From NCBI GenBank assembly GCA_016214145.1, contig JACRPA010000002.1, positions 372,001 through 436,000 on the forward strand: a stretch of 64,000 nt of DNA. Direction: 5' to 3'. The translations under genes and the position numbers were made by a program. Shown piece by piece: positions 17,802 through 32,339 of the stretch. The DNA is from Rhodocyclales bacterium (GTDB lineage Bacteria > Pseudomonadota > Gammaproteobacteria > Burkholderiales > Rhodocyclaceae). Numbering within the stretch: the stretch's first letter is position 1; every line of letters starts with the position of its first letter. The notes beneath the pieces are model-generated. The model did not search any database. It saw nothing but the letters and a program-made list of their open reading frames with translations, and was not told the DNA's origin.

Positions 17802-18098
17802 ATGAGCGACATCCTGATCCGCCGCAGCCACACCATGAGCGCCAAGGCGGCCCGCCAGGCCGCCGAAAAGATCGCCCGCCAGCTCGACGAGGAGTTCGAC
17901 CTCGCCTACGAGTGGGACGACAACGTCCTCGTTTTCAAGCGCAGCGGCGTCAGCGGGGAACTGGTCGTGGAAAAGAAGGAAGTGCACATCCGCGTCAGGC
18001 TGGGTTTCCTCCTCTTCGCCATCAAGCCGCGCATCGAAGAGGAGATTCACCGCTTCTTCGACGAGAACTTCGGGCCGGACTCCGGCCCGACGGTGTGA
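17802..18098 (+). CDS. Polyhydroxyalkanoic acid system family protein
   Basis: A 98-residue small basic/acidic protein matching the PHA-granule-region family (start ILIRRSHTMSAKAARQAAEKIA, then VRLGFLLFAIKPRIEEEI). Members are found near polyhydroxyalkanoate genes in Betaproteobacteria; their molecular role is not settled. The second Met (residue 12) is an alternative start. The ACBP gene converges on it 12 bp away. Its presence opens a block of granule and lipid genes running to about 31.6 kb. Confidence 0.8.
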   Translation: MSDILIRRSHTMSAKAARQAAEKIARQLDEEFDLAYEWDDNVLVFKRSGVSGELVVEKKEVHIRVRLGFLLFAIKPRIEEEIHRFFDENFGPDSGPTV

Positions 18099-18110
18099 TG
18101 ACGCCGGAGG

Positions 18111-18368
18111 CTACCCCTTGAGGGAATCGATGAGGGCGATGTAGCGCTGCATGGCGTCCGCCTTGCCGGTGCCCTTGATCGCCGCCCAGGCATCGAACTT
18201 GGCGCGCCCGACCATGTCGCCGAAACCGGGCCGCTTGCCCTCGGCATCGCCGGTCGTGGCCTGCTTGAACAGGGCATAGAGCTGCAGCAGCGTCTGGTTG
18301 TCCGGCCGCTCGCTCAGCGATTTGGAGGCCGCCACCGCCGCCTCGAAGCTTGCCTGAAGGTCCGCCAT
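18111..18368 (-). CDS. Acyl-CoA-binding protein
   Basis: An 85-residue ACBP, a cytosolic four-helix carrier for long-chain acyl-CoA. The family marks are clear: LYALFKQATTGDAEGKRPGFGDMVGRAKFDAW, where the KQAT-GD and the Lys/Trp of the fourth element contact CoA and acyl chain. Bacterial ACBPs occur mainly in lipid-storing Proteobacteria. It sits between the PHA-system protein and the wax ester synthase, divergent from the latter with 96 bp between, which suits a role in supplying acyl-CoA for ester synthesis. Confidence 0.93.
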   Translation of the reverse strand: MADLQASFEAAVAASKSLSERPDNQTLLQLYALFKQATTGDAEGKRPGFGDMVGRAKFDAWAAIKGTGKADAMQRYIALIDSLKG

Positions 18369-18464
18369 ATTCCTCTCCCGATGGTTCGCGACGGCCGAGC
18401 CCCCCGCTCCCGTCCTCCGGTATTATAGGCGAATCGCCCTGACCGCCTGACGGCACCCATTCCG

Positions 18465-20024
18465 ATGAGCAAGCGTGAGCGCATCTCCCCGGTCGACACC
18501 GCCTGGCTGCGCATGGACCGGCCGACCAACCTGATGATGATCGTCGGCATCATGATGTTCGACGGCCCGATGGACTACGCCCGCCTGCGGCGCACCCTCG
18601 AGGCGCGGCTGCTGCCCTACCGCCGCTTCCGCCAGAAGGTCGTGCACGACGCCACCGGCGCCTGGTGGGAGGACGACGCGGACTTCGATCTCGACTGCCA
18701 CCTGCACCACGCCGCCCTGCCCGCCGGAGACCAGAAGGTCGAGCTGCAGAAAATGGCGGCGGAGCTGATGTCCACCCCGCTCGATCCCAATCGCCCGCTG
18801 TGGAGCTACCACCTGGTCGACAAGTACGACGGCGGCTCGGCGCTGGTCGTGCGCATCCATCACTGCATCGCCGACGGCATCGCGCTGATCGGCGTCATGC
18901 TCTCGCTCACCGATTCGTCACCCGATGCGCCCGAACGGCCCGGCCCGCCCCTGGAAATGGCCGGAGAGGATGACGGCCCCGACAGTTTCTTCTGGAACCG
19001 CGTCTTCGAGCCGGTCACCCAGGGCATAACCACGGCCCTCAACCTGGGCACCCAGGCCTGGTTCAAGTATCTCGAACTGCTCACCCACCCCGACCAGGTG
19101 CTCGACTACAGCCGGCAGGGCGTCGGCATGGCGGCGGAACTGGGCAAGCTCCTCATCATGCCGGCCGACTCGCCCACCCGCTTCAAGGGCAAGCCCGGCG
19201 GCACCAAGGCGGTGGCCTGGTCCGTGCCGATGCCGCTCACCGAGGTCAAGGCGGTGGGCAAGGCCATCGGCTGCTCGGTCAACGACCTGCTGCTCTCTGC
19301 GGTGGCCGGGGCGCTGCGGGCGTACCTTGCCGAGCGGGGCGATCCCGTGGAAGGCGTCGAAGTGCGCGCCATGGTGCCGGTCAACATGCGCTCCGCGGCC
19401 GACGAAGGCAAGCTGGGCAACCGCTTCGGCATCGTCACCCTGCTGCTGCCGGTGTATCTCGACAATCCCTTCGAGCGCGTGTTCGAGGTCAGGCGGCGCA
19501 TGGACGAACTGAAGGGCTCCTACCAGCCCGTCGTCGCCCTCGGCGTGCTCGCCGCCACCGGCCTGGCGCCGAAATTCGTCCAGGACATCGTCCTCGACAT
19601 CCTCGCCAACAAGGCCTCGGCGGTGATGACCAACGTGCCGGGCCCGCCGCAGCCCCTCTACATGGCTGGGGCGCACCTGGCGCAGCAGATGTTCTGGGTG
19701 CCCCAGTCGGGCGACATCGGCATGGGCGTTTCCATCCTCAGCTACGACGGCAAGGTGCAGTTCGGCCTCGTCACCGACCGCCATTTCGTCACCGACCCGG
19801 AGAACATCGTCTCGCGCTTCCAGCCGGAATTCGAGAAGCTGGTGTATGCCCTGCTGCTGGAGCCCTGGGAGGAACTGCGCTCGCCGGAGGAAATCGAGCA
19901 GAGCCTGGAAGAGGAGCTGTCGGTCGGGACCTGTCTGCCGAAGCAAAAGCCGCGCAAGCCACGCGCGCCGCGCAAGAAGCCTGATTCCCCCCCGCCGATC
20001 GAAACGCCGTCCTCCGCGGACTGA
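18465..20024 (+). CDS. Wax ester synthase / diacylglycerol acyltransferase (WS/DGAT)
   Basis: A 519-residue bifunctional acyltransferase that esterifies fatty alcohols or diacylglycerol with acyl-CoA. The catalytic HHxxxDG motif is intact as HHCIADG at residues 132-138. Other family segments are the start PVDTAWLRMDRPTNLMMI, PLWSYHLVD, the PVNMRS block, the GNRFG segment, and VMTNVPGPPQPLYMAG toward the end. The Lys/Arg-rich tail (KQKPRKPRAPRKK) may contact membrane or granule. The last codons and stop are formed by a copy of the dispersed motif in the opposite orientation (20005-20030). A fatty acyl-CoA reductase 3.5 kb downstream would supply the alcohol. Confidence 0.93.
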   Translation: MSKRERISPVDTAWLRMDRPTNLMMIVGIMMFDGPMDYARLRRTLEARLLPYRRFRQKVVHDATGAWWEDDADFDLDCHLHHAALPAGDQKVELQKMAAELMSTPLDPNRPLWSYHLVDKYDGGSALVVRIHHCIADGIALIGVMLSLTDSSPDAPERPGPPLEMAGEDDGPDSFFWNRVFEPVTQGITTALNLGTQAWFKYLELLTHPDQVLDYSRQGVGMAAELGKLLIMPADSPTRFKGKPGGTKAVAWSVPMPLTEVKAVGKAIGCSVNDLLLSAVAGALRAYLAERGDPVEGVEVRAMVPVNMRSAADEGKLGNRFGIVTLLLPVYLDNPFERVFEVRRRMDELKGSYQPVVALGVLAATGLAPKFVQDIVLDILANKASAVMTNVPGPPQPLYMAGAHLAQQMFWVPQSGDIGMGVSILSYDGKVQFGLVTDRHFVTDPENIVSRFQPEFEKLVYALLLEPWEELRSPEEIEQSLEEELSVGTCLPKQKPRKPRAPRKKPDSPPPIETPSSAD

Positions 20025-20030
20025 CTTTCG
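20005..20030 (+). repeat. Dispersed ~26-bp motif, copy 2, inside the end of the WS/DGAT gene
   Basis: CGCCGTCCTCCGCGGACTGA followed by CTTTCG matches the motif consensus, with a C in place of one T of the final TTTT. It supplies the last six codons of the gene and its TGA stop. Confidence 0.55.
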
Positions 20031-20052
20031 CCAGAAATCCGGAGCCCCCGCA

Positions 20053-20134
20053 GTAGGTCGGGCTTCAGCCCGACTGGAGCCCGCAGCTGTCCCACAGGGA
20101 TTTCCTTCGGTCATCGGCCTGAAGGCCGACCTAC
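20053..20134. repeat. GTAGGTCGG palindromic repeat pair, copy a
   Basis: Two short hairpins in opposite order, GTAGGTCGGGCTTCAGCCCGAC at the left and GTCGGCCTGAAGGCCGACCTAC-like at the right, are separated by about 40 bp. Four such pairs occur in the window. Resembles BIME/REP elements and lies between convergent genes. Confidence 0.75.
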
Positions 20135-20138
20135 GAGC

Positions 20139-20921
20139 TCACTCCTCCAGTTCCGCCCTGGCCGCCTCGACGTCGAGGCGCTCCATGGCGTCCGCCGGCT
20201 TGCAGGCGGCCGCTTCGTGGTAGAGCTTTTCCGCCTGCTTCATCTTCGCCTCGCCGAACAGCATCACCAGGCCGTTGGCGTACTCGATGCGCGCGATGGC
20301 CGAATCCGGGTTGAGCTTGAGCGCCTTCTCGAAATGCTCGACGGCCGCATCCTTCTTCGCGCCGTAGGTCAGGCCGCCGACCATGGCGCCGACCTTGTTG
20401 ATCACCTCGGCGTGGAAGGCGCCCAGCGCGATATGCGCATCGGCATGATCCGGGTTCAGCTTCAGCGCCTGCGTCAGGGCGTCGCGCACCTTGGTGCCGA
20501 GGCCCTGTGTCAGCGCCTTCGCCACCGATATCCCCTGGCTGTAGCGGCCCAGGGCCAGGGCATGGAAGTAGAAGGCGTTGGGATACTTCGGCATCTTGCC
20601 CATCTGCGCCTCGCCGCGCGCCGCCGCCTCCTCGAACAGGGCCAGCTTCCTCTTCTCGTTGCTCTCCAGATAGGTGGCGTAGATCGTCGCCGCCTTGTTG
20701 GCCACCGCATAGCCGGGCAGGCCCAAGGAGAGGCCCAGCTCGCAGGCCTGCTGGAAATCGCCCTGGTGGTAGAGCCGCCAGGCTTCCTGCACCTGCTCGT
20801 CGGCGGGAAACGGCTCGCGGTCGCCGCGATGCAGGCGCTCCCAGTACTTCTTCAGCGCCGCGCCGGCGTACACATAAGCTTTATCCGCATGGGGAAACTT
20901 GTTCCATCCGCCCTTGGCCAT
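20139..20921 (-). CDS. TPR-repeat protein of unknown function
   Basis: A 260-residue soluble helical protein with tetratricopeptide-like repeats, clearest at about 152-220 (ALTQALKLNPDHADAHIALGAFHAEV and AVEHFEKALKLNPDSAIARIEYANG). It has no signal peptide or membrane segment, so it is cytosolic. TPR proteins act as scaffolds. It lies 10 bp downstream of the TetR gene, in the same orientation, so both are likely in one transcript. Membership in the lipid-storage block suggests a granule-related role, but nothing in the sequence proves it. Confidence 0.7.
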   Translation of the reverse strand: MAKGGWNKFPHADKAYVYAGAALKKYWERLHRGDREPFPADEQVQEAWRLYHQGDFQQACELGLSLGLPGYAVANKAATIYATYLESNEKRKLALFEEAAARGEAQMGKMPKYPNAFYFHALALGRYSQGISVAKALTQGLGTKVRDALTQALKLNPDHADAHIALGAFHAEVINKVGAMVGGLTYGAKKDAAVEHFEKALKLNPDSAIARIEYANGLVMLFGEAKMKQAEKLYHEAAACKPADAMERLDVEAARAELEE

Positions 20922-20931
20922 CCTGGTCTCC

Positions 20932-21579
20932 TTATTGATTGACGTATTCCTTCGAAAGCTGCTGCAAATGCTGGCGCGAGGCTCCTTGCAGGAAGGGCGC
21001 CATCATCGACATCACCTGGTACACGCCGCGGCCGAGTCCGCTGCCCATGTCGCGACGACGCGGATCGCGGGCGTACTCGAAGGGCAGCCAGTAGGTGGCG
21101 ATGACTGCCATATTGGTCGCCAGCGCCTGGATCTCGCCGGGGCCGGCCTTCATCTCGCCGGTCGCCACCAGCCCCTCGCACAGCGCCGCGGCCGTCTTCA
21201 CCTTGTGCGCCAGGATCTGCTTGAAGTGCACCTCCAGCAGACGGTTGCGCGACAGCAGATCGTCCAGGTCGCGGTAGAGGAAACGGTATTTCCAGATTCC
21301 CTCGAACAGCAGGTGCAGGAACAGCCACATGTCCTCGACGTTGGGCGCGCGGCGCGTAGGCAGGGCCAGCGTCTCGCCGATCTCCCGCTCGAACCCGGCG
21401 AACAGCGCGTTGACGATCTCGTCCTTGCTGTGGAAATGATAGTAGAGGTTGCCGGGGCTGATGTTCAGGTCGTCGGCAATCACCGTGGTGGTGACGTTCG
21501 GCTCGCCGAAGTCGTTGAAAAGCCGGAGGCTGGCTTCGAGGATGCGCTCGCGGGTGCGCCTTTTCGGTTTTTTTTCCAT
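20932..21579 (-). CDS. TetR/AcrR-family transcriptional regulator
   Basis: A 215-residue regulator. The N-terminal helix-turn-helix is typical: TRERILEASLRLFNDFGEPNVTTTVIADDLNISPGNLYYHFHSKDEIV, residues about 7-55. The C-terminal ligand domain is of the group often found in PHA and fatty-acid regulons. The ATG at 21579 is preferred; the longer frame would need TTG at 21588. Likely targets are the neighbouring lipid genes, with an acyl-CoA or fatty acid as ligand, by analogy with FadR- and PsrA-type members. This is inference. Confidence 0.85.
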   Translation of the reverse strand: MEKKPKRRTRERILEASLRLFNDFGEPNVTTTVIADDLNISPGNLYYHFHSKDEIVNALFAGFEREIGETLALPTRRAPNVEDMWLFLHLLFEGIWKYRFLYRDLDDLLSRNRLLEVHFKQILAHKVKTAAALCEGLVATGEMKAGPGEIQALATNMAVIATYWLPFEYARDPRRRDMGSGLGRGVYQVMSMMAPFLQGASRQHLQQLSKEYVNQ

Positions 21580-21615
21580 ACAGGCCAAAGCTTAGCACCC
21601 CGACCTCAAATTGCG

Positions 21616-22929
21616 TCAAGCCGCCTTGCGCCCCGCCTCCGTTTTCCGCCCGAGCCAGCGCTCCAGCTCCCCGAGGGAATCCCCCAGGCGATGGCTCACC
21701 GCCATCAGGGTGTCTTCCTTCTCGGCATGGCCGCCGATGTCGTGATGCACCAGGGAACGATTCTCCTTGAGCGCCTCGAGCCGGATGCGGATGCCGTGCC
21801 TGGCGAGGATCGGCCCCAGTTCGTGACGTCGCCGGTAGAGCTCGATGCGCGTCTTCTGGTAGGCGTGCTCGCACAGGTGGCGGCGGCTGGCGTAGCTGAA
21901 CATATTGGTGAAGAACATCTCGGGGTCGTCGCTGTTCGGCTCGAACAGAACCACGTCGGCGTTCTTGTATTCGATGCGGTACTTGGCCATGCCCACCTGC
22001 ATGCGCGAGTGGATGATGGAGCGGAAGGTCTGCGCCAGCACCACCGGCAGGCCGCCTTCCACCAGCTTGTGGTGCCGGCCGGCGCCGCGCTTGACGGCCA
22101 GTTCGGAATCGAAGGGCACCAGCGGGTTGATGCACAGCACCAGGTCGGCGCCCTCCTTGAGGGCCACCGAGGCGTGCAGCGTTTTTTTCAGGGCGCCATC
22201 CACATAGTAACGGCCGTCGATTTCCACCGGCGGAAACAGCCCCGGCAGCGCGGCGCTGGCCTGCACGGCCGTGGAAATCGGCACATGGTCCTCGCCCGAG
22301 GAGCCGAACACCACCGACTCGCCGGAGTCGAGGTCGGTCGCCACCAGGAACAGGCGGCGCTTCAATTTGCGGAAATCGTTGCTGCGGCCCGGCGCGGTGA
22401 AGATCCGGCTGAGGAAGTCATGGATGCCGGCGCTGTTGAAAATGCCGGTCGGGATGGCCTGGGAGAGGCGCTGGAAGGACTCGAAGAAGTTCTGGCTCCA
22501 GGGATTGGCCAGGTAGTTCCAGATCGAGGCCAGCAGGAGCGGCGGCACCGACATGGCACGCAGCGCGTATTCGCGGAAGGCCGGCTTGAGCAGCAGTTCC
22601 GGCTCGAACGGCTCTTCGGCGGTGTCGCTCTCGATGAACATGTGGCGCATGCGCTCGGGCGTCAGCCCGTTCGCCAGCCCGGCGGCGATGAAGCCGCCCG
22701 AACTCACGCCGACATAGACGTTCAGGTCATTGAAATCGACGCCGTCCAGGGACTCCGACAGCGCCAGCAGCGCGCCTAGTTCGTAGACGCCGCCAAGTGG
22801 ACCTCCCCCGGCAAGAGCCAACCCGACGCGCGGGGAGCGTTCACCGTCATTCCCGCGCACGCGGGAATCCAGTGAGTTACGCGCGACGCTGGATCCCCGC
22901 CTCCGCGGGGATGACACTCCCTTTGCCAT
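21616..22929 (-). CDS. Patatin-like phospholipase/lipase with a repeat-derived N-terminus
   Basis: A 437-residue patatin-fold lipid acyl hydrolase. After the N-terminus come the oxyanion loop LALAGGGPLGGVYELGAL, the nucleophile elbow GVSSGG and the dyad Asp in YVDGALKK, all intact. The C-terminal 150 residues are an extension typical of larger bacterial patatins. The ATG at 22929 has AGGGAAGGGCG upstream, but residues about 5-27 are translated from the palindromic repeat at 22846-22915 (SPRRRGSS...DSRVRGND pattern). A GTG within that stretch could start a shorter form. It lies 21 bp downstream of the phasin gene on the same strand, which suits mobilisation of stored lipid. Confidence 0.87.
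   Translation of the reverse strand: MAKGVSSPRRRGSSVARNSLDSRVRGNDGERSPRVGLALAGGGPLGGVYELGALLALSESLDGVDFNDLNVYVGVSSGGFIAAGLANGLTPERMRHMFIESDTAEEPFEPELLLKPAFREYALRAMSVPPLLLASIWNYLANPWSQNFFESFQRLSQAIPTGIFNSAGIHDFLSRIFTAPGRSNDFRKLKRRLFLVATDLDSGESVVFGSSGEDHVPISTAVQASAALPGLFPPVEIDGRYYVDGALKKTLHASVALKEGADLVLCINPLVPFDSELAVKRGAGRHHKLVEGGLPVVLAQTFRSIIHSRMQVGMAKYRIEYKNADVVLFEPNSDDPEMFFTNMFSYASRRHLCEHAYQKTRIELYRRRHELGPILARHGIRIRLEALKENRSLVHHDIGGHAEKEDTLMAVSHRLGDSLGELERWLGRKTEAGRKAA
22846..22915. repeat. GTCATTCCCGCG palindromic repeat (dRS3-like), copy 1, translated
   Basis: A 70-bp element with outer arms GTCATTCCCGC and GCGGGGATGAC and two inner hairpins. Five fuller copies and one partial copy are present in the window. 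This copy is inside the patatin reading frame and keeps it open. Confidence 0.8.
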
Positions 22930-22950
22930 CGCCCTTCCCTGGAAGGACGC

Positions 22951-23385
22951 TTACTTCGCGGCGCGGCGGCGCGGAGCGGGTTTCCCGCCGTTCAGGTTCT
23001 GCACGACCTCGGTCAGTTCGGCGACGCGCCGGGTCAGGGCCTCGATTTCCTTCTTGGTCGGCACGCCGAGGCTCGACAGCGAGCGGGCGACGCGGTCCTC
23101 GAAGACCTGCTCCAGCTTGTCCCAGGTGCCGGACGCCTTGGCGGCCGCCTCGGCCACCTTTTTGCCGGTGACCTTGCGCACAAACGACTGGCGCGCCTCG
23201 CCTTCCTTCACCAGCGCCTCGAACATTTTCATGCCCTCGGCCTGAAATTTCGTGCCGCTGGCCTGCGCCTTGGCGAACGCGCCCAAGCCGGCCAGCCAGA
23301 TCTGCTGCGCCGAATCGCGGACCGTCTGCGCGAATTCGCTTTCCCCCGATGCTCCGCCTGCCAGTGCCTTGAGTTTCTTGACCAT
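22951..23385 (-). CDS. Phasin family granule-associated protein
   Basis: A 144-residue phasin of the PhaF/PhaI type. Amphipathic helices cover 20-100 (QIWLAGLGAFAKAQASGTKF is the family start), and a leucine-zipper-like end holds SLGVPTKKEIEALTRRVAELTEVV. The Ala/Lys/Arg tail (PAPRRRAAK) is a short version of the basic tail that binds DNA in PhaF. Phasins coat PHA or neutral-lipid granules. The ATG at 23385 has AGGAGG seven bases upstream; the frame to 23472 is not needed. It is divergent from the fatty acyl-CoA reductase gene. Confidence 0.88.
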   Translation of the reverse strand: MVKKLKALAGGASGESEFAQTVRDSAQQIWLAGLGAFAKAQASGTKFQAEGMKMFEALVKEGEARQSFVRKVTGKKVAEAAAKASGTWDKLEQVFEDRVARSLSSLGVPTKKEIEALTRRVAELTEVVQNLNGGKPAPRRRAAK

Positions 23386-23552
23386 GATGCTGCCTCCTGT
23401 AGAAAGTTGAATCCTGCTGTCCGGGGTGTCCCCCTGCATTGCCAATCTAGCGGGAAAAATTAGGGAAGGCACACTAAAGATGCGGGCATGGCGTCCTGCG
23501 CCGCACCGAGCTTCGCGTGTATGATATTTCGCTCACCCAGGAGGAGGTTCGC

Positions 23553-25538
23553 ATGGACTATTTCGTCACCGGAGCGACCGGTTTCATCGGCAAGCGTCTC
23601 GTCAGGAAGCTGCTCGCCCGCCCCGGCAGCACCGTGCATTTCCTCACCCGCTCGAACGAGCCGGAAAAGCTCGAGGCCCTCTACGCCTTCTGGGGCGTGG
23701 ACGGGCGCCGCGCGATTCCCGTCGTCGGCGACCTCAAGGACAAGCAGCTCGGCGTCTCCAAGGCCGAGCAGAAGAAGCTCAAGGGCAAGGTCGACCACTT
23801 CTTCCACCTCGCCGCCCTCTACGATCTCGGCGCCTCCGCCGAGGAAGACGAGGCGGTCAACATCGCCGGCACCCGCAACACCCTCGCCCTGGCCGAGGCG
23901 CTCGGCGCGCGCTGCTTCCACCACATGAGCTCGATCGCCGCCGCCGGCATGTTCGAGGGCATCTTCCGCGAGGACATGTTCGAGGAGGCGGAGAACCTCG
24001 AGCACCCCTACTTCCGCACCAAGCACGAGGCCGAGGGCATCGTGCGCAAGGAATGCAAGGTGCCCTGGCGCATCTACCGGCCGAGCTCCGTCGTCGGCGA
24101 CTCGCGCAGCGGCGAGATGGACAAGATCGACGGCCCCTACTACTTCTTCAAGATCATCCAGAAGCTGCGCAAAATCCTGCCGCCGTGGATGCCGACCATC
24201 GGACTCGAGGGCGGCCGCATCAACATCGTGCCGGTGGATTTCGTCGTCGCCGCCATGGACCACATCGCCCACCTGGAGGGCCAGGACGGCAAGTGCTTCC
24301 ACCTCACCGACCCGTCTCCGCACCGCGTCGGCGACGTCCTGCAGATCCTTGCCCGCGCCGCGCACGCGCCGGACATGGGCATGCGCATCAACGCCGCCCT
24401 GCTCGGCTTCATCCCGCGCGGCGTCAAGAAAAGCCTGATGGCGCTCACCCCGGTGCGCCGCATCCGCAACGCGCTGATGAAGGACCTCGGCCTGCCCGAC
24501 AATGTCCTCGACTTCATCAACTATCCGACCCGCTTCGACTGCCGCGAGACCGAAAAGGCGCTGGCCGGCAGCGGCATCGCCGTGCCGCCGCTGGAAGACT
24601 ACGCCTGGCGCCTGTGGGACTACTGGGAGCGCCACCTCGACCCGGACCTCTTCATCGACCGCACCCTGAAGGGCCAGGTCAAGGGCCGCGTCGTGCTGGT
24701 CACCGGCGGCTCGTCGGGCATCGGCAAGGCCACCGCCCGCAAACTGGCCGAGGCCGGCGCCATCACCGTCATCGTCGCCCGCGATCCCGAGAAGCTGGCC
24801 GAGACCAAGCACGAGTTCGAGGCCGACGGCCTGCAGCTCGTCGCCTACTCCGCCGACATCTCCGACTACGCGGAATGCGACGACTTCGTCAGGCAGGTGG
24901 TCGCGGAATACGGCGGCGTGGACATCCTCGTCAACAACGCCGGCCGCTCGATCCGCCGCGCCATCGAGAACTCCTTCGACCGCTTCCACGACTTCGAGCG
25001 CTGCATGCAGCTCAACTACTTCGCGGCGGTGCGCCTGACCATGGGCTTCCTGCCCGGCATGATCGCCAAGAAGAAGGGCCACATCATCAACATCTCCTCC
25101 ATCGGCGTGCTCACCAATGCGCCGCGCTTCTCCGCCTACGTCGCCTCGAAGTCGGCGCTGGAGGCCTACTCGCGCTGCGCCGCCTCGGAGTTCGCCGACC
25201 GCGGCATCGACTTCACGTCGATCAACATGCCGCTGGTGAAGACGCCGATGATCGCGCCGACCAAGATGTACCAGAACGTGCCTACGCTCAGCCCGGAAGA
25301 GGCCGCCGACCTGGTGGTCGAGGCCATCGTGCACAAGCCGGTGCGCATCGCCACCCGCCTCGGCGTCTTCGGCCAGGTGGTCCATGCCTTCTCGCCGAAG
25401 GTGGCGCAGATCATCATGAACACCAGCTTCCGCATGTTCCCCGACTCCTCCGCGTCCGCCGGCAAGAAGGAAGGCGAGGTGCCGCCGACCGCCGACCAGG
25501 TCGCCTTCAGCCAGCTGATGCGCGGGATACATTTCTAA
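23553..25538 (+). CDS. Two-domain fatty acyl-CoA reductase, alcohol-forming (FarA/Maqu_2507 type)
   Basis: A 661-residue fusion of two short-chain dehydrogenase domains. The N-terminal extended SDR has GATGFIGKRLV at 7-17 and YFRTK near 152 (thioester reductase type). The C-terminal classical SDR has VTGGSSGIGKAT near 382 and the Ser/Tyr/Lys site with AYVASK near 529. Length, order and the end (AFSQLMRGIHF) match from memory the Marinobacter reductase Maqu_2507 (661 residues), which makes fatty alcohols from acyl-CoA with NADPH. The ATG at 23553 has CAGGAGGAGG upstream. With the WS/DGAT gene it completes the minimal wax-ester pathway. Aldehyde-only release by each domain separately is the alternative. 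Confidence 0.88.
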   Translation: MDYFVTGATGFIGKRLVRKLLARPGSTVHFLTRSNEPEKLEALYAFWGVDGRRAIPVVGDLKDKQLGVSKAEQKKLKGKVDHFFHLAALYDLGASAEEDEAVNIAGTRNTLALAEALGARCFHHMSSIAAAGMFEGIFREDMFEEAENLEHPYFRTKHEAEGIVRKECKVPWRIYRPSSVVGDSRSGEMDKIDGPYYFFKIIQKLRKILPPWMPTIGLEGGRINIVPVDFVVAAMDHIAHLEGQDGKCFHLTDPSPHRVGDVLQILARAAHAPDMGMRINAALLGFIPRGVKKSLMALTPVRRIRNALMKDLGLPDNVLDFINYPTRFDCRETEKALAGSGIAVPPLEDYAWRLWDYWERHLDPDLFIDRTLKGQVKGRVVLVTGGSSGIGKATARKLAEAGAITVIVARDPEKLAETKHEFEADGLQLVAYSADISDYAECDDFVRQVVAEYGGVDILVNNAGRSIRRAIENSFDRFHDFERCMQLNYFAAVRLTMGFLPGMIAKKKGHIINISSIGVLTNAPRFSAYVASKSALEAYSRCAASEFADRGIDFTSINMPLVKTPMIAPTKMYQNVPTLSPEEAADLVVEAIVHKPVRIATRLGVFGQVVHAFSPKVAQIIMNTSFRMFPDSSASAGKKEGEVPPTADQVAFSQLMRGIHF

Positions 25539-25554
25539 ACAACGATAAAACGCC

Positions 25555-25633
25555 TTCAACGCGAAGGACGCAAAGGAAGCAGGATTCATGTCTGTCTTTG
25601 CGCCCTTTGCGCCTTTGCGATCTTTGCGTTGAA
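25555..25633. repeat. Imperfect inverted repeat rich in CGCAAAGG/CTTTGCG
   Basis: Arms TTCAACGC and GCGTTGAA enclose several CTTTGCG and GCAAAGG units. Found between the reductase and the second peroxiredoxin. Function unknown, repeat of a type common in proteobacterial spacers. Confidence 0.55.
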
Positions 25634-25662
25634 AGAGGTTAACCCCACAACAGGAGAACCCC

Positions 25663-26124
25663 ATGAGACCGAAAGCCGGCGACCCCGCCCCCGACTTTTC
25701 CTGCCACGCCACCGACGGCAGCACCATCCGGCTGTCGGATTTCCGCGGCAAAAAGCTCGTGCTCTACTTCTACCCGATGGACGACACGCCGGGCTGCACG
25801 GCCCAGGCCTGCAGCCTGCGCGACGTCAACCGCGACATCGCCGCCAGGGGCGCGGCGATCCTCGGCGTATCCTCGCAGAACGAGGAATCGCACCAGAAGT
25901 TCACCTCGAAGTACAAGCTGAATTTCCCGCTGCTGGCCGACACCGACCGAACAATGGCCAAGGCCTACGGCGTGGCCGGATCGGGCCTGTTCGGCGTGGC
26001 GCGCGCGCTGACGGGAATGAACGAGCGGGTGACCTTCATCATCGACGAGAAGGGCAGGATCGCCCACGTCCTCGACGACCCCAATTGCCCCAACCACGGG
26101 GAGGAAGTGCTGAAGTTTCTGTAG
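25663..26124 (+). CDS. bcp: Bcp/PrxQ-type peroxiredoxin, canonical two-cysteine form
   Basis: A 153-residue thiol peroxidase. Peroxidatic Cys45 and resolving Cys50 are both present in DDTPGCTAQACSLRD, unlike the paralogue at 6016-6483. The C-terminal half (GLFGVARALTGMNERVTFIID) lacks the KYG-type insertion of E. coli Bcp. The start at 25663 follows AGGAGAACCCC. The stop TAG (26122-26124) is the first part of a GTAGGTCGG repeat that also provides the stop of the convergent lipase gene. It may protect stored unsaturated lipid from peroxidation; that is inference. Confidence 0.92.
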   Translation: MRPKAGDPAPDFSCHATDGSTIRLSDFRGKKLVLYFYPMDDTPGCTAQACSLRDVNRDIAARGAAILGVSSQNEESHQKFTSKYKLNFPLLADTDRTMAKAYGVAGSGLFGVARALTGMNERVTFIIDEKGRIAHVLDDPNCPNHGEEVLKFL

Positions 26125-26188
26125 GTCGGCCTTCAGGCCGACTTGGGAGGGGATTCAGCCGCTGCTGTCGGGCTGAAGCCCGACCTAC
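26121..26188. repeat. GTAGGTCGG palindromic repeat pair, copy b, supplying two stop codons
   Basis: The pair overlaps the ends of both convergent genes. Its left hairpin contains TAG for bcp (26122-26124) and its right hairpin contains the reverse-strand TAG for the lipase (26187-26185). Confidence 0.8.
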
Positions 26189-27099
26189 CGATCCGCCAAC
26201 TCCGCCAGCAGCAGCCGCTCGATCTCCGGCGAGAAGGCCATTTCCAGGTGGCCGACGCCGGCCATCGGCACGATCTTCGCCCCCTCCAGAACCGAACTGT
26301 CCTGCGGCATGACGTAGTTGTCCTGGCAGCTGTAGATCGACACCGTCTCCGGCAATGGCACGGCGCCCGGCGCGTTGAGGGCGGCGAGCCATTGGCTGCC
26401 GGGCACCATCTGGCGGCCGTTCTCGCCCATGCCCAGCTTCGCCAGCTGGCTGCCGCGGTGCGGCGTGCCCAGGGTAATGAGCTTCGCCACGCGCGCCGCG
26501 CCCTTGCGACGCAGATAGGCGCGCGACACCAGCCCGCCCATGCTGTGGCCGACGAGGATCACCTGCGCGGCGCCGCTGGCGGCGCAGACCTCCTCGATGC
26601 GCCGCGACACCTGCTCGACGTAGCCGTCGATGTCGTTGAACACCGGATCCAGGCTGATCGTGGCGACCTGCCGGCCGGCGCGCTCCAGGCTGCGCCGCAG
26701 CCACAGCCAGTAGCCGCGGTTGCACTGGTAGCCATGTATCAGCAGTATCGGCAGGCGGCCATCGGCGGCGCGGCCCAGCCGGTCGGCGCCCATGAAGAAG
26801 CGCTCGAAGGGCATGATCACCGTGAACAACAGGAAGAAGGCGGACAGCTCGCGCAGGAACATCGCCAGCCCCTGCCCGGCGCCGATGCCCCGGTCCTCGG
26901 GCGGCGGCACGGCGTAGGCGCGGGCGAAAGAAAAAGTGACGCCGATGATGAAGGCGCGGCCCGCCACCATCAGGATCAACGCCAGCCCGACGGCCTGTTG
27001 CCAGACCCAGCCGCAGCGCCAGTTCAGCGCGACGCCGAGCAGCAGGTAAATGGCGAATTCGCCGGCCAGCATCAGCCGGTGCAGGGTTGCAGCAGACAT
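26185..27099 (-). CDS. Membrane-anchored alpha/beta-hydrolase, lipase-like
   Basis: A 304-residue protein. About 100 N-terminal residues hold three probable membrane helices, then comes an alpha/beta-hydrolase with oxyanion turn LIHGYQCN, nucleophile GHSMGG (Ser near 186), acid in CQDNYVMP and His in GVGHLEM; the triad is complete. The domain resembles bacterial triacylglycerol/ester lipases (YLWLRRSLERAG region). It faces the same lipid cluster, so ester hydrolysis at the membrane is likely. It is the last gene of a minus-strand run with the GMC oxidase upstream (13 bp gap). Confidence 0.82.
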   Translation of the reverse strand: MSAATLHRLMLAGEFAIYLLLGVALNWRCGWVWQQAVGLALILMVAGRAFIIGVTFSFARAYAVPPPEDRGIGAGQGLAMFLRELSAFFLLFTVIMPFERFFMGADRLGRAADGRLPILLIHGYQCNRGYWLWLRRSLERAGRQVATISLDPVFNDIDGYVEQVSRRIEEVCAASGAAQVILVGHSMGGLVSRAYLRRKGAARVAKLITLGTPHRGSQLAKLGMGENGRQMVPGSQWLAALNAPGAVPLPETVSIYSCQDNYVMPQDSSVLEGAKIVPMAGVGHLEMAFSPEIERLLLAELADR

Positions 27100-27112
27100 G
27101 CTCGATCCTCCC

Positions 27113-28720
27113 TCAGGCCAGCGCAGGCGCCGGCTGCTTTGTCATCTCTTCGACCAGCCGGCTGGCGTTGCGCGCCGCCAGAGCATACACCGACTGCTGC
27201 GGATTGGCGCCGATGCTGGTGGGGAACAGCGAACCGTCGCATACCGTCAGGTTGCCGAGTCCGCGGTAGCGGCCGGCGTCATCGGTGACGCCGCGCTTGC
27301 CGTCGGCGGCCATGCCGCAGCCGCCCATGACATGGGCGCTCACCACCCGCGCCAGATGCGGCCTCAGCGGCAGCTTCGCGATCGCCTCCTTCGCCTCCGC
27401 CCAGCTGGCGTAGCCGTCGCACTGCTCGTGCACGATGAACACCTGCTTCGCCCCGGCGGCGAACTGCAGCTCGGCCATGGCCAGCCAGGAGCGGCGCACG
27501 CCCTCCCAGACGAAATCCGTGATCGGGTAATCCAGCAGCGGCGCGCCGTTGTCGCCCAGTTGCACGCTGCCGCCCGGGCTGTCGGGATGGAAGCCGTCGC
27601 GCAGCAGCGCCAGCAGGGCATGGGTGTTGGCGAACTCGCGCATCAGGTTCTTGTGCACCTCGCCGAAACCCTGCAGCGTCGTGCCGAACAGCACGGGGTG
27701 CATGGGCGGCACCTCCAGCTTGTAGCCGATCGGCCCGTCGACGGCGACCGTGTCGAGGTAGTGGTCGGAGTAGATGGTCTGCGGCGCGCCGGCATAGCCG
27801 CGCACCTCGTGATCCATGAGTGCGGCGGAGACCGTCGTCGGATGCAGGAAGGTGCGGCGGCCGAGCAGCCCGCTCGGGTTCGGCGCGCCGCTCCTCAGCA
27901 GCAGCGCCGGCGAGCCGATGGCGCCGGCGGCCAGCAGGTAATGCTTCGCCCGCACCCGCACGCGGTACGGCAGGGCATGGATGCCGGCCTCGTGCATCGC
28001 CGCGCATTCCAGCGCCTCGACGCGCTCGCCCTTCAGCAGCAGCCGCTCGGCGCGCAGGTGGTGCACCAGGACGCCGCCCTTGGCCAGCGCCGCAGGAATG
28101 GTCGTCACCAGCATCGACTGCTTGGCGTTGGTCGGGCAGCCCATGCCGCAGTAGCCGAGGTTCCAGCAGCCCTTGACGTTGCGGCGCATCGGCGCCACCG
28201 GGACGCCGAGTTGCCAGGCGGCCTGGCGCAGCAGCTTGTTGTTCTCGTTCGGGCTCAGGTCCCAGTAGCGGATGTTCAGGCGCCGGTCCACGGCGTCGAA
28301 CCAGGGCGCCAGCCCTTCGACGTTCAGATCCTTCAGGCCGTACTCGCGCTGCCAGTGCGCCAGCGTCGCCGGCGGCGTGCGGAAGCTGCTGGTCCAGTTC
28401 ACCGTCGTCGAGCCGCCGACGCAGCGGCCCTGCAGGATGTTGATGGCCTTGTCTTTCGTCTTGCGCGCCGCCGACTCCTGGTAGAGCTGCGGGTAGGCAT
28501 CGGCCTCGCGCAGCTTGAAATCGGTGGAGGTTTTCAGCGGCCCCTCTTCGAGGATGGCGACCTTGAGGCCGGCCTTGGCGAGGATTTCCGCCGCGATGCC
28601 GCCGCCGGCGCCGCTGCCGACGATGGCGACGTCAACCTCCAGCTCGCGATCGGCGACCAGGCGCGAGGCATCGATCACCTGCCAGCCCTGGCTCATGCCC
28701 TCGATGAACGGATCTCTCAT
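27113..28720 (-). CDS. FAD-dependent GMC oxidoreductase, likely long-chain alcohol oxidase/dehydrogenase
   Basis: A 535-residue GMC family flavoprotein that oxidises alcohols to aldehydes. The FAD Rossmann motif VAIVGSGAGGGIAAE is at 31-45. A cysteine-rich segment near 181-196 (CWNLGYCGMGCPTNAK) and the end DGSLFPTSIGANPQQSVYALA with His in HVMGGCGMA (about 462) place it with long-chain alcohol and fatty-alcohol oxidases rather than choline or glucose oxidases. The TAA of the upstream Tat-signal gene is directly followed by its ATG, so they are translationally coupled and probably form a complex. Fatty alcohol from wax esters is the plausible substrate. Confidence 0.85.
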   Translation of the reverse strand: MRDPFIEGMSQGWQVIDASRLVADRELEVDVAIVGSGAGGGIAAEILAKAGLKVAILEEGPLKTSTDFKLREADAYPQLYQESAARKTKDKAINILQGRCVGGSTTVNWTSSFRTPPATLAHWQREYGLKDLNVEGLAPWFDAVDRRLNIRYWDLSPNENNKLLRQAAWQLGVPVAPMRRNVKGCWNLGYCGMGCPTNAKQSMLVTTIPAALAKGGVLVHHLRAERLLLKGERVEALECAAMHEAGIHALPYRVRVRAKHYLLAAGAIGSPALLLRSGAPNPSGLLGRRTFLHPTTVSAALMDHEVRGYAGAPQTIYSDHYLDTVAVDGPIGYKLEVPPMHPVLFGTTLQGFGEVHKNLMREFANTHALLALLRDGFHPDSPGGSVQLGDNGAPLLDYPITDFVWEGVRRSWLAMAELQFAAGAKQVFIVHEQCDGYASWAEAKEAIAKLPLRPHLARVVSAHVMGGCGMAADGKRGVTDDAGRYRGLGNLTVCDGSLFPTSIGANPQQSVYALAARNASRLVEEMTKQPAPALA

Positions 28721-29245
28721 TTATAGAATTTCCGGCGGTCCGGGATAGCCGATGGCCTCCCAGGTGTCGGGCGTGCCGTACCAGGCACCCAGCACCAGGT
28801 CGTGCAACGCCGCATAGGCGCTGCGCAGCAGTGCGAGGCGACTCATCCGCCAGCCTTGCAGGAAGGCGGCGACCTCTGCGGGCGACGCGTCTTCCCAGCG
28901 CGGCCACAGCCCGGCCAGCAGCACGCGCGCCGGCGCAATGTCCAGGAGCGTGAACAGCTCCGCCAGCTCCTTTTGCGCTGCCGCCGACAGGCCGGCGATG
29001 GCGATGCCGACGCCCTCCACCGTCTGCGCGATGGCCTTGCTGCGCGCCTCACCCGCTTCCGGCAGCGCGCCGGCCAGCATCGCCGGCACGATGGCGGCGA
29101 TGATCGTCCGCCCGGACAAAGTCAGTCCCCGTGACACGGCGGTCGACGGCGCCTCCTTCAGGCCGCGCGAGTAGAAAAGGCCGGCCGCCGTCAGCGCGGC
29201 GCCGCCGACCAACCCCGCCTTGATGAATTGACGACGCGTAATCAC
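28721..29245 (-). CDS. Tat-signal protein, probable small subunit of the GMC oxidoreductase
   Basis: A 174-residue protein if the GTG at 29245 is used (MITRRQFIKAGLVGGAALTAAGLF). The twin-arginine motif TRRQFIK followed by a hydrophobic stretch shows Tat export. The mature part is alpha-helical and resembles small subunits that accompany GMC dehydrogenases (gluconate dehydrogenase subunit 3 type). The longer frame from 29290 would add residues translated from a GTCATTCCCGCG repeat in front of the Tat signal and is less likely. A motif copy at 29116-29141 is translated within it (TAVSRGLTLSG). Coupled to the GMC gene. Confidence 0.72.
   Translation of the reverse strand: MITRRQFIKAGLVGGAALTAAGLFYSRGLKEAPSTAVSRGLTLSGRTIIAAIVPAMLAGALPEAGEARSKAIAQTVEGVGIAIAGLSAAAQKELAELFTLLDIAPARVLLAGLWPRWEDASPAEVAAFLQGWRMSRLALLRSAYAALHDLVLGAWYGTPDTWEAIGYPGPPEIL
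29116..29141 (-). repeat. Dispersed ~26-bp motif, copy 3, within coding sequence
   Basis: ACAAAGTCAGTCCCCGTGAC followed by ACGGCG on the plus strand matches the consensus. It encodes residues just after the Tat signal region, in a linker-like position. Confidence 0.5.
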
Positions 29246-29251
29246 GATTTC

Positions 29252-29325
29252 GTCATTCCCGCGAAAGCGGGAATCCAGGAATTTACGCAAGAACGCTGGA
29301 TCCCCGCATTCGCGGGGATGGCGAC
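29252..29325. repeat. GTCATTCCCGCG palindromic repeat, copy 2
   Basis: Two hairpins with CCAG and CTGG between. It occupies the gap between the aldehyde dehydrogenase stop and the Tat-signal gene, which it extends if the longer start is used. Confidence 0.8.
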
Positions 29326-29354
29326 ATGATTCTTAATTGTCCGCGCCACACCGA

Positions 29355-30779
29355 TCACCGGATCAACAGGCTCACCATGCGCTCGAACACCTTGCCGTAG
29401 GGCGGCTTGAACAGCCTCATGCCGTTGACGCGCGACTGGAAGAACACCGCCTTCTTCTTGGAGAACGCCTCGAAGCCTTCGAAGCCGTGGTAGTGGCCCT
29501 TGCCGCTTTCGCCGACGCCGCCGAAAGGCAGGCTGTCCTGGGCGATGTGCAGGAGGGTGTCGTTGATGGTGACGCCGCCGGACAGCGTCTGCTCCAGCAC
29601 GTGCTCGATGCGGCCGCGGTCGTGGTCGAAGTAGTACAGCGCCAGCGGATTCGGCCGCGCATTCACGTAGGCAATCGCTTCGTCGAGGTCGCGGTAGCCC
29701 ACCACCGGCAGGATCGGCCCGAAGATCTCCTCCTGCATCACCTGCATGTCCGCGCCGACGTTGAGCAGCGCAACCGGCGGGATGCGCCGCGTCGCCGCAT
29801 CGGGTTCCGCCGCGGCGGACAGCGGCACCACCTCGGCGCCCTGCCCGCGCGCATCCTCGACGAGGCCGAGCAGCCGCCGGTAATGCCGCTCGCCGACGAT
29901 CGACGAATAATCCGGCGTGCGCAGGATGTCCGGGTAGCAGGCGTCCACCACCTTGCGCGCGGCGGCGATGAACTCGCGCGCCTGCCCCGCCGGCACCAGC
30001 ACATAGTCCGGCGCGATGCAGGTCTGGCCGGCGTTCATGGTCTTGCCGACCATGACGCGCTCGGCGAATTTTTCCATCGAATAGTCCGGCCCGAGGATGG
30101 CCGGCGACTTGCCGCCCAGCTCCAGCGTCACCGGCGTCAGGTTGTCGGCGGCGGCGCGCATCACGCTGTAGCCGACCTTGGTCGAGCCGGTGAACAGCAG
30201 ATGGCCGAAGGGCAGCCGCGCGAAGGCCTGCGCCACCCCGGCGTCGCCCTGCACCACCGCCACCTCGTCGTCTGAAAAATATTTCACCACCAGGCGGGCG
30301 AACAGATCGGAGGTGGCCGGAGTGTACTCGGACATCTTCACCATGACGCGATTGCCGGCGGCCAGCGCCGCCACCAGCGGCCCCACCGCCAGCAGCAGCG
30401 GATAGTTCCACGGCACGATGACGCCGACGACGCCGAGCGGCTGGTGCAGCACGCGGGCGCGGCCGGGCAGGAACCACATCGAGACGGCGCGGCGCTCCGG
30501 CCGCATCCAGGATTTCAGGTGGCGGCGGGCGTGGCGGATGGCTTCAAAGCTGGGAAAGAGTTCGAGGAGCTGCGTTTCGTGCAGCGATCGGTTGCCGAAG
30601 TCGCCGCGGATGGCCTCTGCGATGGCCGTCTGGTTCTCGCGGATCAAGCGCTCCAGCGCATCCAACCAGGCGTCGCGCCGACGCCAGCCGGGATTGGAAT
30701 CGCCTGCCGCCGCCTCGCGCAGTCGGGCATGGATCGCGGCCAGGTCGCCGCCCGCGACATCCATCTCATTGGTGCCCAT
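29355..30779 (-). CDS. Aldehyde dehydrogenase, coniferyl/fatty-aldehyde type
   Basis: A 474-residue NAD(P)-dependent aldehyde dehydrogenase. Active residues are all visible: Asn in PWNYPL, Glu in ELGGKSP (near 219), catalytic Cys in NAGQTCIAPDY (near 253), and EEIFGPILPV. The relatively short length and C-terminal GKGHYHGFEGFEAFSKKKAVF match the coniferyl-aldehyde/long-chain class, which includes membrane-associated fatty aldehyde enzymes. It is the first gene of a minus-strand run with the Tat/GMC genes (about 110 bp gap with a repeat). It would convert fatty aldehyde to fatty acid in wax-ester breakdown. Confidence 0.9.
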   Translation of the reverse strand: MGTNEMDVAGGDLAAIHARLREAAAGDSNPGWRRRDAWLDALERLIRENQTAIAEAIRGDFGNRSLHETQLLELFPSFEAIRHARRHLKSWMRPERRAVSMWFLPGRARVLHQPLGVVGVIVPWNYPLLLAVGPLVAALAAGNRVMVKMSEYTPATSDLFARLVVKYFSDDEVAVVQGDAGVAQAFARLPFGHLLFTGSTKVGYSVMRAAADNLTPVTLELGGKSPAILGPDYSMEKFAERVMVGKTMNAGQTCIAPDYVLVPAGQAREFIAAARKVVDACYPDILRTPDYSSIVGERHYRRLLGLVEDARGQGAEVVPLSAAAEPDAATRRIPPVALLNVGADMQVMQEEIFGPILPVVGYRDLDEAIAYVNARPNPLALYYFDHDRGRIEHVLEQTLSGGVTINDTLLHIAQDSLPFGGVGESGKGHYHGFEGFEAFSKKKAVFFQSRVNGMRLFKPPYGKVFERMVSLLIR

Positions 30780-30892
30780 CGCACTTCCTTCGCGCTGTGG
30801 GAATGATTCAGTGTAGCCGAGCGACTTTGAGGCGGGTTAGGCAATTGCCTCTAATCCCTCGCATGCGGCAACGGCGCGTGGATAATGCCGCC

Positions 30893-31624
30893 ATGGGCAA
30901 AGAGGAAAAGCAGCATTGGGTCGGGCAGTTGCGCCGCCACCTGGGCCAGGCCAAGACCTTGCGCGCCGCCGCCCGCACCGATCCGCGCGACGCCGAGGAC
31001 CGGCTGAGCCTGCGCGCCTGGCAGTCCGACCGCCTCGCCGCCACCTACCGCGACCTGCTCGACTCGGCGCGCTACCACGACGCGGCGCGCTTCTTCCTCA
31101 CCGACCTCTACGGCCCCAAGGACTTCAGCGAACGCGACCACGAAGTCGAGCGCATCCTGCCCACGCTTTCCGCCACCCTGCCCGCTGCAGGCATCCGTAC
31201 CGTCGCCCTCGCCATCGAGGTCGACGCCCTCTCCGAAGAACTCGACGCCGCCATGGTGGCGGAACTGCGCCGCGCCCGCGCCATCGCGAGCCTCACCGAA
31301 AAAAGCTATGCCGAGGCCTACCGCCGCTGCGGCAAGCGGGCGCAGCGCGAACTGCAGCTCAAGCTGATCGGCGAAGTCGGCGAGGCCCTCGCCGCGCTCA
31401 CCCGCAAGCCGCTCATCCATGCCGCCCTGCGCATCATGCGCGCGCCGGCGAAGCTGGCCGGCCTGGCCGAACTGCACGCCTTCCTCGAGAACGGCTACGA
31501 CGCCTTCCACAAGATGGGCGATTCGGCGGAATTCCTCGCCACCATCGCCACGCGCGAAGCGGCCATCCTGCAGCGGCTCTACGCCGGCACAGCGCGGCCG
31601 TTCGACCTCCCGGACAGCGATTGA
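30893..31624 (+). CDS. Conserved protein of unknown function (FFL.(D/E)LYG type)
   Basis: A 243-residue helical, Arg/Ala-rich cytosolic protein. The segment RFFLTDLYGPKDFSERD near residues 64-81 is the most distinctive, and I recall similar FFLEELY-like proteins in Betaproteobacteria without a known function. It has no signal or membrane segment. The ATG at 30893 is chosen because the longer frame (from 30797) has no support; ATG at 30863 is another option. It is divergent from the aldehyde dehydrogenase with 113 bp between. A motif copy begins 22 bp past its stop. Confidence 0.7.
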   Translation: MGKEEKQHWVGQLRRHLGQAKTLRAAARTDPRDAEDRLSLRAWQSDRLAATYRDLLDSARYHDAARFFLTDLYGPKDFSERDHEVERILPTLSATLPAAGIRTVALAIEVDALSEELDAAMVAELRRARAIASLTEKSYAEAYRRCGKRAQRELQLKLIGEVGEALAALTRKPLIHAALRIMRAPAKLAGLAELHAFLENGYDAFHKMGDSAEFLATIATREAAILQRLYAGTARPFDLPDSD

Positions 31625-31705: not shown

Positions 31706-31909
31706 GCTTCCGATTCTCGGCCAATCCGGTCATTCCCGCGAACGCGGGAATCCAGAGACGTCCTGACGACTGTGTGCCCGTTGCGGCCGTTTGTCTGTAG
31801 GTCGGCCTTCAGGCCGACAGCGGCGGTTGCTCGGGCGCTCAAGTCGGGCTGAAGCCCGACCTACATCCCGCGTTCGCGGGAATGACCGGATTGGCCGAGA
31901 AGCGGAAGC
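31706..31909. repeat. 204-bp element with 44-bp inverted repeats (GTCATTCCCGCG family), copy 3
   Basis: 31706-31749 and 31866-31909 are inverted copies with 43 of 44 matches, longer than the usual arms of this family. A GTAGGTCGG pair (31797-31864) lies inside, directly against the right arm, so one repeat has been placed in the other. Confidence 0.8.
31797..31864. repeat. GTAGGTCGG palindromic repeat pair, copy c, nested
   Basis: The two hairpins are 24 bp apart inside the 204-bp element. Confidence 0.8.
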
Positions 31910-32313: not shown

Positions 32314-32339
32314 CGCCGTGTTGCGGAGACTGACTTTTC
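32314..32339 (+). repeat. Dispersed ~26-bp motif, copy 6
   Basis: CGCCGTGTTGCGGAGACTGA followed by CTTTTC, overlapping the TGA stop of the ABC exporter gene in the same way as copy 5 does for its neighbour. Confidence 0.75.

Follow-up and report, generated by a model that had tools for sequence, protein, structure and literature searches.

A conserved gene cluster for probable wax-ester storage and recycling in a Rhodocyclales bacterium, with a candidate operator shared by its alcohol-forming and alcohol-oxidising arms

Results

A fourteen-gene cluster for probable neutral-lipid metabolism

We analysed a 64-kb stretch (the window) of contig JACRPA010000002.1, positions 372,001 to 436,000, from the genome of a Rhodocyclales bacterium (assembly GCA_016214145.1; 3.42 Mb, 12 contigs). 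The window harbors a cluster of 14 genes which probably serves the storage and recycling of a neutral lipid, most likely wax ester, and in which two arms appear to be switched together: one around an alcohol-forming fatty acyl-CoA reductase (FAR) and one resembling the alcohol-oxidising LaoABC system of Pseudomonas aeruginosa. The enzyme activities, the product and the binding of the regulator are predicted here from sequence. The genes and two candidate operator sites are listed in their order along the window.

17802-18098, + strand: PHA_gran_rgn family protein, 98 amino acids (PF09650, 91 bits; TIGR02610, 77 against a cut-off of 40.25)
18111-18368, - strand: acyl-CoA-binding protein (ACBP), 85 amino acids (PF00887, 94.8 bits against 28.3)
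18465-20024, + strand: wax ester synthase/diacylglycerol acyltransferase (WS/DGAT), motif HHCIADG (PF03007, 126.6 against 23.6; PF06974, 127.6 against 20.7; TIGR02946, 403.7 against 309.95)
20139-20921, - strand: TPR protein, candidate lipid carrier (TPR family matches)
20932-21588, - strand: TetR-family repressor, candidate regulator (PF13972, 150.9 against 25 bits; helix-turn-helix PF00440, 41.1 against 24)
21616-22929, - strand: patatin-like lipase, start uncertain (PF01734, 103.9 bits)
22951-23385, - strand: phasin of the PF05597 type, with an internal ATG taken as start; open reading frame 22951-23472 (PF05597, 110.9 against 28.8)
23460-23477: palindrome TTAGGGAAGGCACACTAA, candidate operator in the phasin/FAR gap
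23553-25538, + strand: alcohol-forming FAR with two SDR domains (NF005539, 1013.5 against 549; PF07993 and PF00106)
25663-26124, + strand: Bcp-type peroxiredoxin (PF00578, 140.6 bits)
26185-27099, - strand: alpha/beta-hydrolase, candidate ester lipase (PF00561, PF02089; GHSMGG)
27113-28720, - strand: GMC alcohol dehydrogenase, LaoA-like (PF00732, 171.4 bits; PF05199, 67 bits)
28721-29290, - strand: Tat-signal partner, LaoB-like (PF10518, 23.1 against a cut-off of 22.7)
29355-30779, - strand: aldehyde dehydrogenase, LaoC-like (PF00171, 281.5 bits)
30837-30854: palindrome TTAGGCAATTGCCTCTAA, candidate operator in the LaoC/FFLEE gap
30893-31624, + strand: FFLEELY-motif protein, FFLEE (NF047641, 239.1 against a cut-off of 55)

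An initial annotation of the window had placed a wax-ester locus at 17802-30779; profile searches recovered all of its named genes within that interval. The TPR protein, the Bcp-type peroxiredoxin and FFLEE, which starts 114 bases beyond the end of the interval, are additions to its gene list.

Conservation of the cluster in relatives

Relatives were surveyed in two samples. From 546 confirmed FAR relatives, the best 80 were taken as the named loci; these are the closest ones, and their neighbouring genes were scored by tblastn at a coverage of at least 40%; since some of these loci are cut by contig ends, their gene counts are lower bounds. The second, evenly drawn sample comprised 120 genomes of the order, with 20-kb stretches around FAR in 16 of them besides our own. 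Both samples overlap in one record (locus L058 is genome G009), and p-values throughout ignore kinship among genomes.

In the named loci, FAR was accompanied by the phasin in 77 cases (at most 10 kb away), by TetR in 68, the TPR protein in 60 and patatin in 59, followed by WS/DGAT (31), ACBP (28), PHA_gran_rgn (23), the alpha/beta-hydrolase (16), FFLEE (13), LaoB (11), LaoA (10), LaoC (8) and the peroxiredoxin (7). Based on these counts, the cluster consists of a phasin-FAR-TetR-TPR-patatin core, which the Lao arm joins in only a minority of loci, mostly from Rhodocyclaceae-like or unplaced betaproteobacterial records. Judged by its name, at least one named locus lies outside the betaproteobacteria (L128, Aeromonas piscicola); cultured environmental bacteria such as Rugamonas brunnea and Caldimonas caldifontis are also among the carriers. 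Near-complete copies were also found: G009 holds 13 of the 14 genes with order and orientation kept, lacking only LaoC; L051 holds 13 before its contig ends, and L053, L060 and L061 hold 13 each. Large parts of the cluster are retained in the FAR stretches of G037, G003, G068 and G054. The recurrence in Rhodocyclales genomes that the initial annotation had proposed as a check was thus observed. Its view that such a grouping is unusual was not supported: most of the 80 closest loci keep core genes around FAR, and part of the cluster is already published (PMC10351704).

Across the order, a full-length FAR was present in 17 of the 120 genomes, our own included, and these are 17 of the 18 genomes with WS/DGAT (PF03007) against 0 of the 102 others, which points to an alcohol as the partner in esterification. 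Strong LaoA matches (E ≤1e-190, weaker ones set aside) occurred in 9/18 WS/DGAT genomes versus 3/102 others. Spread of LaoA on plasmids was rejected, the plasmid collection having returned a single distant match (31%) at E ≤1e-50. As a separate observation, the LaoA homologue of G026, a genome without WS/DGAT, carries three stops inside the match (L174, G026:C1:543156-544760).

Catalytic motifs were largely kept among the relatives' matches. The combined Rossmann and YxxxK pattern of FAR was found in 76/80, and its motif sites were invariant in an eight-sequence alignment; HHxxxDG was present in 30 of 33 WS/DGAT matches (partial matches counted), GxSxG in 59/59 patatins and the catalytic motif of LaoC in 8/8. 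The GHSxGG motif of the alpha/beta-hydrolase, intact in the window copy, was kept in only 6/16.

A palindrome shared by the FAR and Lao arms

The 64-kb window holds exactly two copies of the TetR-type palindrome TTAG-N10-CTAA, at 23460 and 30837. Both copies sit in divergent gaps (phasin/FAR and LaoC/FFLEE), two of the window's four; shuffled windows contained 0.07 palindromes on average, and two were reached in 0 of 100. Our genome has seven such sites, and uniform placement would put at least two of the seven in the cluster with P = 3e-4.

Relatives were scanned with at most one mismatch in the eight fixed bases over upstream regions of 220 bases. The window is counted in the sets of 80 (FAR), 31 (WS/DGAT), 24 (PHA_gran_rgn) and 69 (TetR) regions; of the named FAR loci, one was too short. 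The palindrome preceded FAR in 72 of the 80 regions (79 named loci plus the window), compared with a mean of 3.8 and a maximum of 9 in mononucleotide shuffles. Among the 113 palindromes in 1.48 Mb of named loci, 77 lay in the phasin/FAR gap, nine in the Lao/FFLEE gap, one in L060 (assigned to FFLEE itself by its label, as the query extended upstream of the gene's start), 20 to the right of FAR without a further cluster gene on that side, and six elsewhere.

The site also followed the regulator. It was found before FAR in 68/68 named loci with TetR in view and in 4/12 without it (within 500 bases; five in another count); none of the eight named loci lacking the FAR site had TetR in view. With regard to the Lao arm, 10 of the 11 named loci holding both Lao and FFLEE carried the palindrome between them, and the remaining one (L063) has a copy with two mismatches. 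FFLEE/LaoC pairs away from FAR also carry it in G110 and G068. A further phasin gene away from FAR is preceded by a one-mismatch palindrome in G068 (L047, 573-590) and G021 (L166, 11362-11379).

Shared control of the FAR and Lao arms is therefore supported at the sequence level, although not in all relatives, with TetR as the putative binder. To the best of what our searches returned, this shared palindrome is new here.

FFLEE and the TPR protein track WS/DGAT

FFLEE belongs to NCBIfam NF047641, a family of unknown function. It was present in 18 of the 120 genomes of the order, exactly the 18 with WS/DGAT, and in 0/102 others; the two were concordant in all six families holding both states. 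This linkage within the order is new here. The predicted structure is all-helical, with a mean predicted local distance difference test (pLDDT) score of 90.9. A Foldseek search with it returned no PDB or BFVD match at E ≤0.001, the sequence profile found nothing in the PDB better than E 0.24, and the word 'FFLEELY' was not mentioned in the literature searched (one open library).

Two genomes of the class are exceptions to the link between FFLEE and WS/DGAT. In G305 (L188, G305:C30:116000-135000), which is not among the PF03007 genomes, FAR, TetR, phasin and FFLEE lie close together, adjoining DUF1302, DUF1329 and MMPL genes. G194 (L190, G194:C3) has FFLEE and is among neither the FAR nor the WS/DGAT genomes; its neighbouring open reading frames are unlike the cluster.

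The TPR protein (E <1e-70; matches at E 8.7e-6 to 6.8e-4 in G113, G070, G066 and G014 set aside) was found in 15/18 WS/DGAT genomes and 0/102 others. Its model scored pLDDT 96.0 and pTM 0.92. By E-value, the best PDB matches in Foldseek were the TPR domain of PTPIP51 (7cc7; E 6.9e-6, TM 0.62/0.70) and a bacterial sterol transporter (7t1s; E 1.6e-5, TM 0.62/0.69). Among the 50 matches listed, these two lipid-carrier chains also had the highest TM by query length (0.62-0.63), ahead of a TPAT transporter from bacteria (0.59) and a TPR protein from Thermus (0.58). When TM is taken by target length, 2pl2 (0.76) and 7obi_A (0.72) exceed them.

The fold is similar to both carriers, but identity is only 15-18%, and the sequence match is limited to the general TPR part (residues 188-254). 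Neither 7cc7 nor 7t1s was among the 30 PDB matches listed for the family profile, which comprised only designed and O-GlcNAc-transferase-type TPR chains. The TPR domain of PTPIP51 is reported to bind phospholipid within a cavity and to transfer it in vitro (PMC9239997). On the strength of the fold similarity, we regard the TPR protein as a candidate lipid carrier; that it tracks WS/DGAT and has a predicted fold like lipid-carrying TPR domains is likewise new here.

Further features of the cluster and its surroundings

The HHCIADG motif of WS/DGAT, reported as intact by the initial annotation, is so in the window copy, and the nearest solved chains of this protein are 7nxg and 6chj. Our genome has a second WS/DGAT at G000:C3:554073, with the motif HHAVLDG. 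The NF005539 alignment on FAR covers model positions 1-657 of 657, and the closest FARs in named records are those of a Rhodocyclaceae bacterium (L050, 94% identity) and a Sulfuritalea metagenome-assembled genome (L051, 88%). The phasin scored 83 with TIGR01837, under the cut-off of 94.7. The GMC, Tat-partner and aldehyde dehydrogenase genes are adjacent on one strand (27113-30779) in the order C-B-A. A 'long-chain-type' aldehyde dehydrogenase, as initially described, was not recovered: among NCBIfam models, the top match is to one for benzaldehyde dehydrogenase, with 302.5 bits, under its cut-off of 550. That the ACBP might be a misread reading frame at 17802 was rejected, the real ACBP lying at 18111-18368 on the - strand.

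A sigma-70 promoter scan gave one match in 14 kb, the same as in shuffles (mean 1.2). REP-like palindromes (ATTCCCGCG..CGCGGGAAT, for example) lie at 22849-22868, 22893-22912, 29255-29274, 29300-29319, 31732-31751, 31801-31818 and 31841-31862, both between and inside called reading frames; the patatin start is uncertain because one such pair sits in the N-terminal part of its reading frame. Directly before the cluster (10798-17636) are a 1531-residue histidine kinase with many PAS domains and a response-regulator GGDEF-EAL protein, and in L051 a match to the kinase also adjoins the cluster. Just outside its other end lies an SbmA/BacA-like ABC transporter (32338-34041), with any match in only 3 of the 80 FAR loci, at 26-27%.

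Discussion

Proposed working of the cluster

The gene content suggests the following scheme. FAR would convert acyl-CoA into fatty alcohol, which WS/DGAT would join to a second acyl-CoA to form the ester, ACBP supplying acyl-CoA. The phasin and PHA_gran_rgn protein may coat or organise the lipid body, and patatin and the alpha/beta-hydrolase may cleave esters. Freed or leaked alcohol would then be oxidised to acid by LaoA/LaoB and LaoC, with FFLEE and the TPR protein as presumed accessory factors. TetR would occupy the TTAG-N10-CTAA operator in both gaps (phasin/FAR and LaoC/FFLEE) and, by analogy with LaoR, would probably release it at high long-chain acyl-CoA, a ligand that we infer; FAR/phasin and Lao/FFLEE would therefore come on together and not be opposed. 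WS/DGAT would stand outside this switch.

As chemistry, the closed cycle that the initial annotation had drawn is coherent. LaoAB is reportedly a Tat-dependent dehydrogenase (Panasia 2021), so alcohol oxidation and synthesis may take place on opposite sides of the membrane. The joint control it had also proposed held in part: for the FAR and Lao arms, with the palindrome in their two gaps, it is supported, and only for these, because the palindrome is absent before WS/DGAT.

A bolder version, which we put forward tentatively and consider doubtful, is that the TPR protein and FFLEE are dedicated wax-storage parts. The former would carry lipid between the membrane and the lipid body, like the TPR domains of PTPIP51 and the sterol transporter; the latter would be needed wherever WS/DGAT works in the order; and one TetR switch would turn on alcohol formation and oxidation together as a managed wax cycle.

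Weighing the evidence

A number of observations speak against a co-switched storage and recycling cluster, or narrow its reach. The palindrome was upstream of WS/DGAT in 0/31 regions, of PHA_gran_rgn in 0/24 and of LaoA in 0/10, and a single operator for the whole cluster was rejected on that account; upstream of TetR itself it appeared in 1/69. The reversed pattern is commoner in our genome (16 versus 7), so that there is no general enrichment of the palindrome. Among the 16 FAR loci of the evenly drawn sample, which are a fairer sample than the 80 closest, a site just before FAR was found in only six (G009, G003, G021, G110, G068 and, as a poor copy, G048); of those with TetR in the stretch, five of seven had it, G037 and G054 being without. 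None was found before FAR in the FAR stretch of G002, which has a palindrome before a phasin on another contig, nor in G094, G117, G075, G067, G031, G109 and G020. Of these, G020, G067 and G109 are also without a strong TetR; near their Lao genes they have a TetR with 33-37% identity. Evenly drawn FFLEE/Lao pairs carried the palindrome in 4/8 cases (G009, G081, G110 and G068; not found in the pairs of G037, G003, G021 and G054). This type of TetR also occurs in 5 of the 102 genomes without WS/DGAT (E ≤1e-45, weaker matches set aside). Lao genes stood near FAR in only 8-11 of the 80 named loci, and LaoAB homologues of P. putida are reported to be dispensable on C16/C20 alcohols (PMC13291428). 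In 276 genomes of the class, including our own and G048, FFLEE was over its cut-off in 10, WS/DGAT in 15 and FAR in 10; FFLEE and FAR occurred together in eight, as did FFLEE and WS/DGAT, with FFLEE alone in two and WS/DGAT alone in seven. A strict tie between FFLEE and WS/DGAT in the whole class was thus rejected (8/10 FFLEE genomes have WS/DGAT).

The alternative to which we give most room, at somewhat under an even chance, is that the Lao arm serves the import and use of fatty alcohols, alkyl sulfates or alkanes from outside the cell and is a neighbour sharing the regulator, with no part in wax recycling. P. aeruginosa LaoABC is reportedly tied to the degradation of sodium dodecyl sulfate and alkanes, and LaoAB is described as Tat-dependent. 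Moreover, palindrome-bearing Lao operons exist in G114 and G026, both without WS/DGAT, where the palindrome precedes LaoC (it does not in G091); it may thus be primarily an operator of the Lao genes, perhaps one that began there and was later shared with FAR. However, in several genomes Lao, FFLEE and the alpha/beta-hydrolase adjoin FAR and the same palindrome is present, and LaoA favours WS/DGAT genomes as counted above. The product itself could also be triacylglycerol or a mixed neutral lipid, with the alcohol from FAR put to another use. WS/DGAT enzymes are established to accept both acceptors, and the grouping in G305, as well as that in G081, where most of the cluster is kept and the genome-wide search of the 120 genomes found no full-length FAR, speaks for this. 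We nonetheless hold it to be unlikely in view of the near-perfect confinement of FAR to WS/DGAT genomes. The G081 locus (L167, G081:C78) comprises WS/DGAT, ACBP, TPR, TetR, patatin, phasins, LaoA, LaoB, LaoC and FFLEE together with three palindromes.

Two further explanations strike us as improbable, and about equally so. By their family names, the phasin and PHA_gran_rgn protein could belong to polyhydroxyalkanoate granules and be here by chance, a coincidence hard to square with a phasin near FAR in nearly all named loci and with the concentration of palindromes in the gap between the two. Ordinary co-inheritance of lipid genes among related genomes, free of shared control, would fit with the many close relatives among the 80 named loci (Acidovorax, Hydrogenophaga, Rhodoferax and others) and with the lesser regularity of the palindrome in the evenly drawn set; against it, the palindrome clusters in two gaps and accompanies TetR in the named loci, and FFLEE and WS/DGAT are concordant in the six families where both states occur. 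On balance, we retain a wax-ester storage and recycling cluster with co-switched FAR and Lao arms as the probable reading.

Outside a few model genera, little is known about how bacteria form, coat and mobilise their neutral-lipid bodies. In this cluster, a TetR/palindrome pair is joined by two families of unknown function that are strongly linked to the enzymes of wax-ester metabolism, and by a delimited group of genes for alcohol oxidation. Its carriers are relatives of Accumulibacter, Dechloromonas, Acidovorax and similar bacteria, many of which come from sludge and groundwater according to their records.

Comparison with known systems

No description of this gene set together with the shared palindrome, FFLEE and the TPR protein turned up in the literature searched (one open library), and among the wax-ester matches listed there only PMC10351704 describes part of the cluster. 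In that study (Galvan 2023, PMC10351704), betaproteobacterial scaffolds from sediment metagenomes carry WS/DGAT with ACBP, an SDR reductase and a PHA-system protein; the reductases are MAQU_2507-like (59.2% and 58.8% identity), and a phasin lies on another scaffold. WS/DGAT beside ACBP, a MAQU_2507-like reductase and a PHA-system protein are thus common to those scaffolds and the window. The main text has no mention of patatin, TetR or FFLEE, and the Lao arm, the TPR protein and the operator are absent from its accessible portions.

LaoABCR of P. aeruginosa is reported to comprise PA0364-PA0367, and the window shares with it an alcohol dehydrogenase, a small membrane or Tat partner, an aldehyde dehydrogenase and a transcriptional regulator, a likeness of layout. 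Unlike LaoABCR, the window has its Lao genes beside wax-ester synthesis genes, the alpha/beta-hydrolase and FFLEE, and its TetR is not beside the Lao operon as LaoR would be, lying 7.8 kb from LaoC and next to patatin. With Marinobacter MAQU_2507 the window shares the two-domain fatty acyl-CoA reductase, and with the solved chains 6chj and 7nxg an HHxxxDG acyltransferase; in the window, this reductase and acyltransferase are accompanied by patatin, phasin, TetR and TPR genes. In kind, the system is a known one; its conserved gene set is expanded, and its candidate regulon is limited by lineage.

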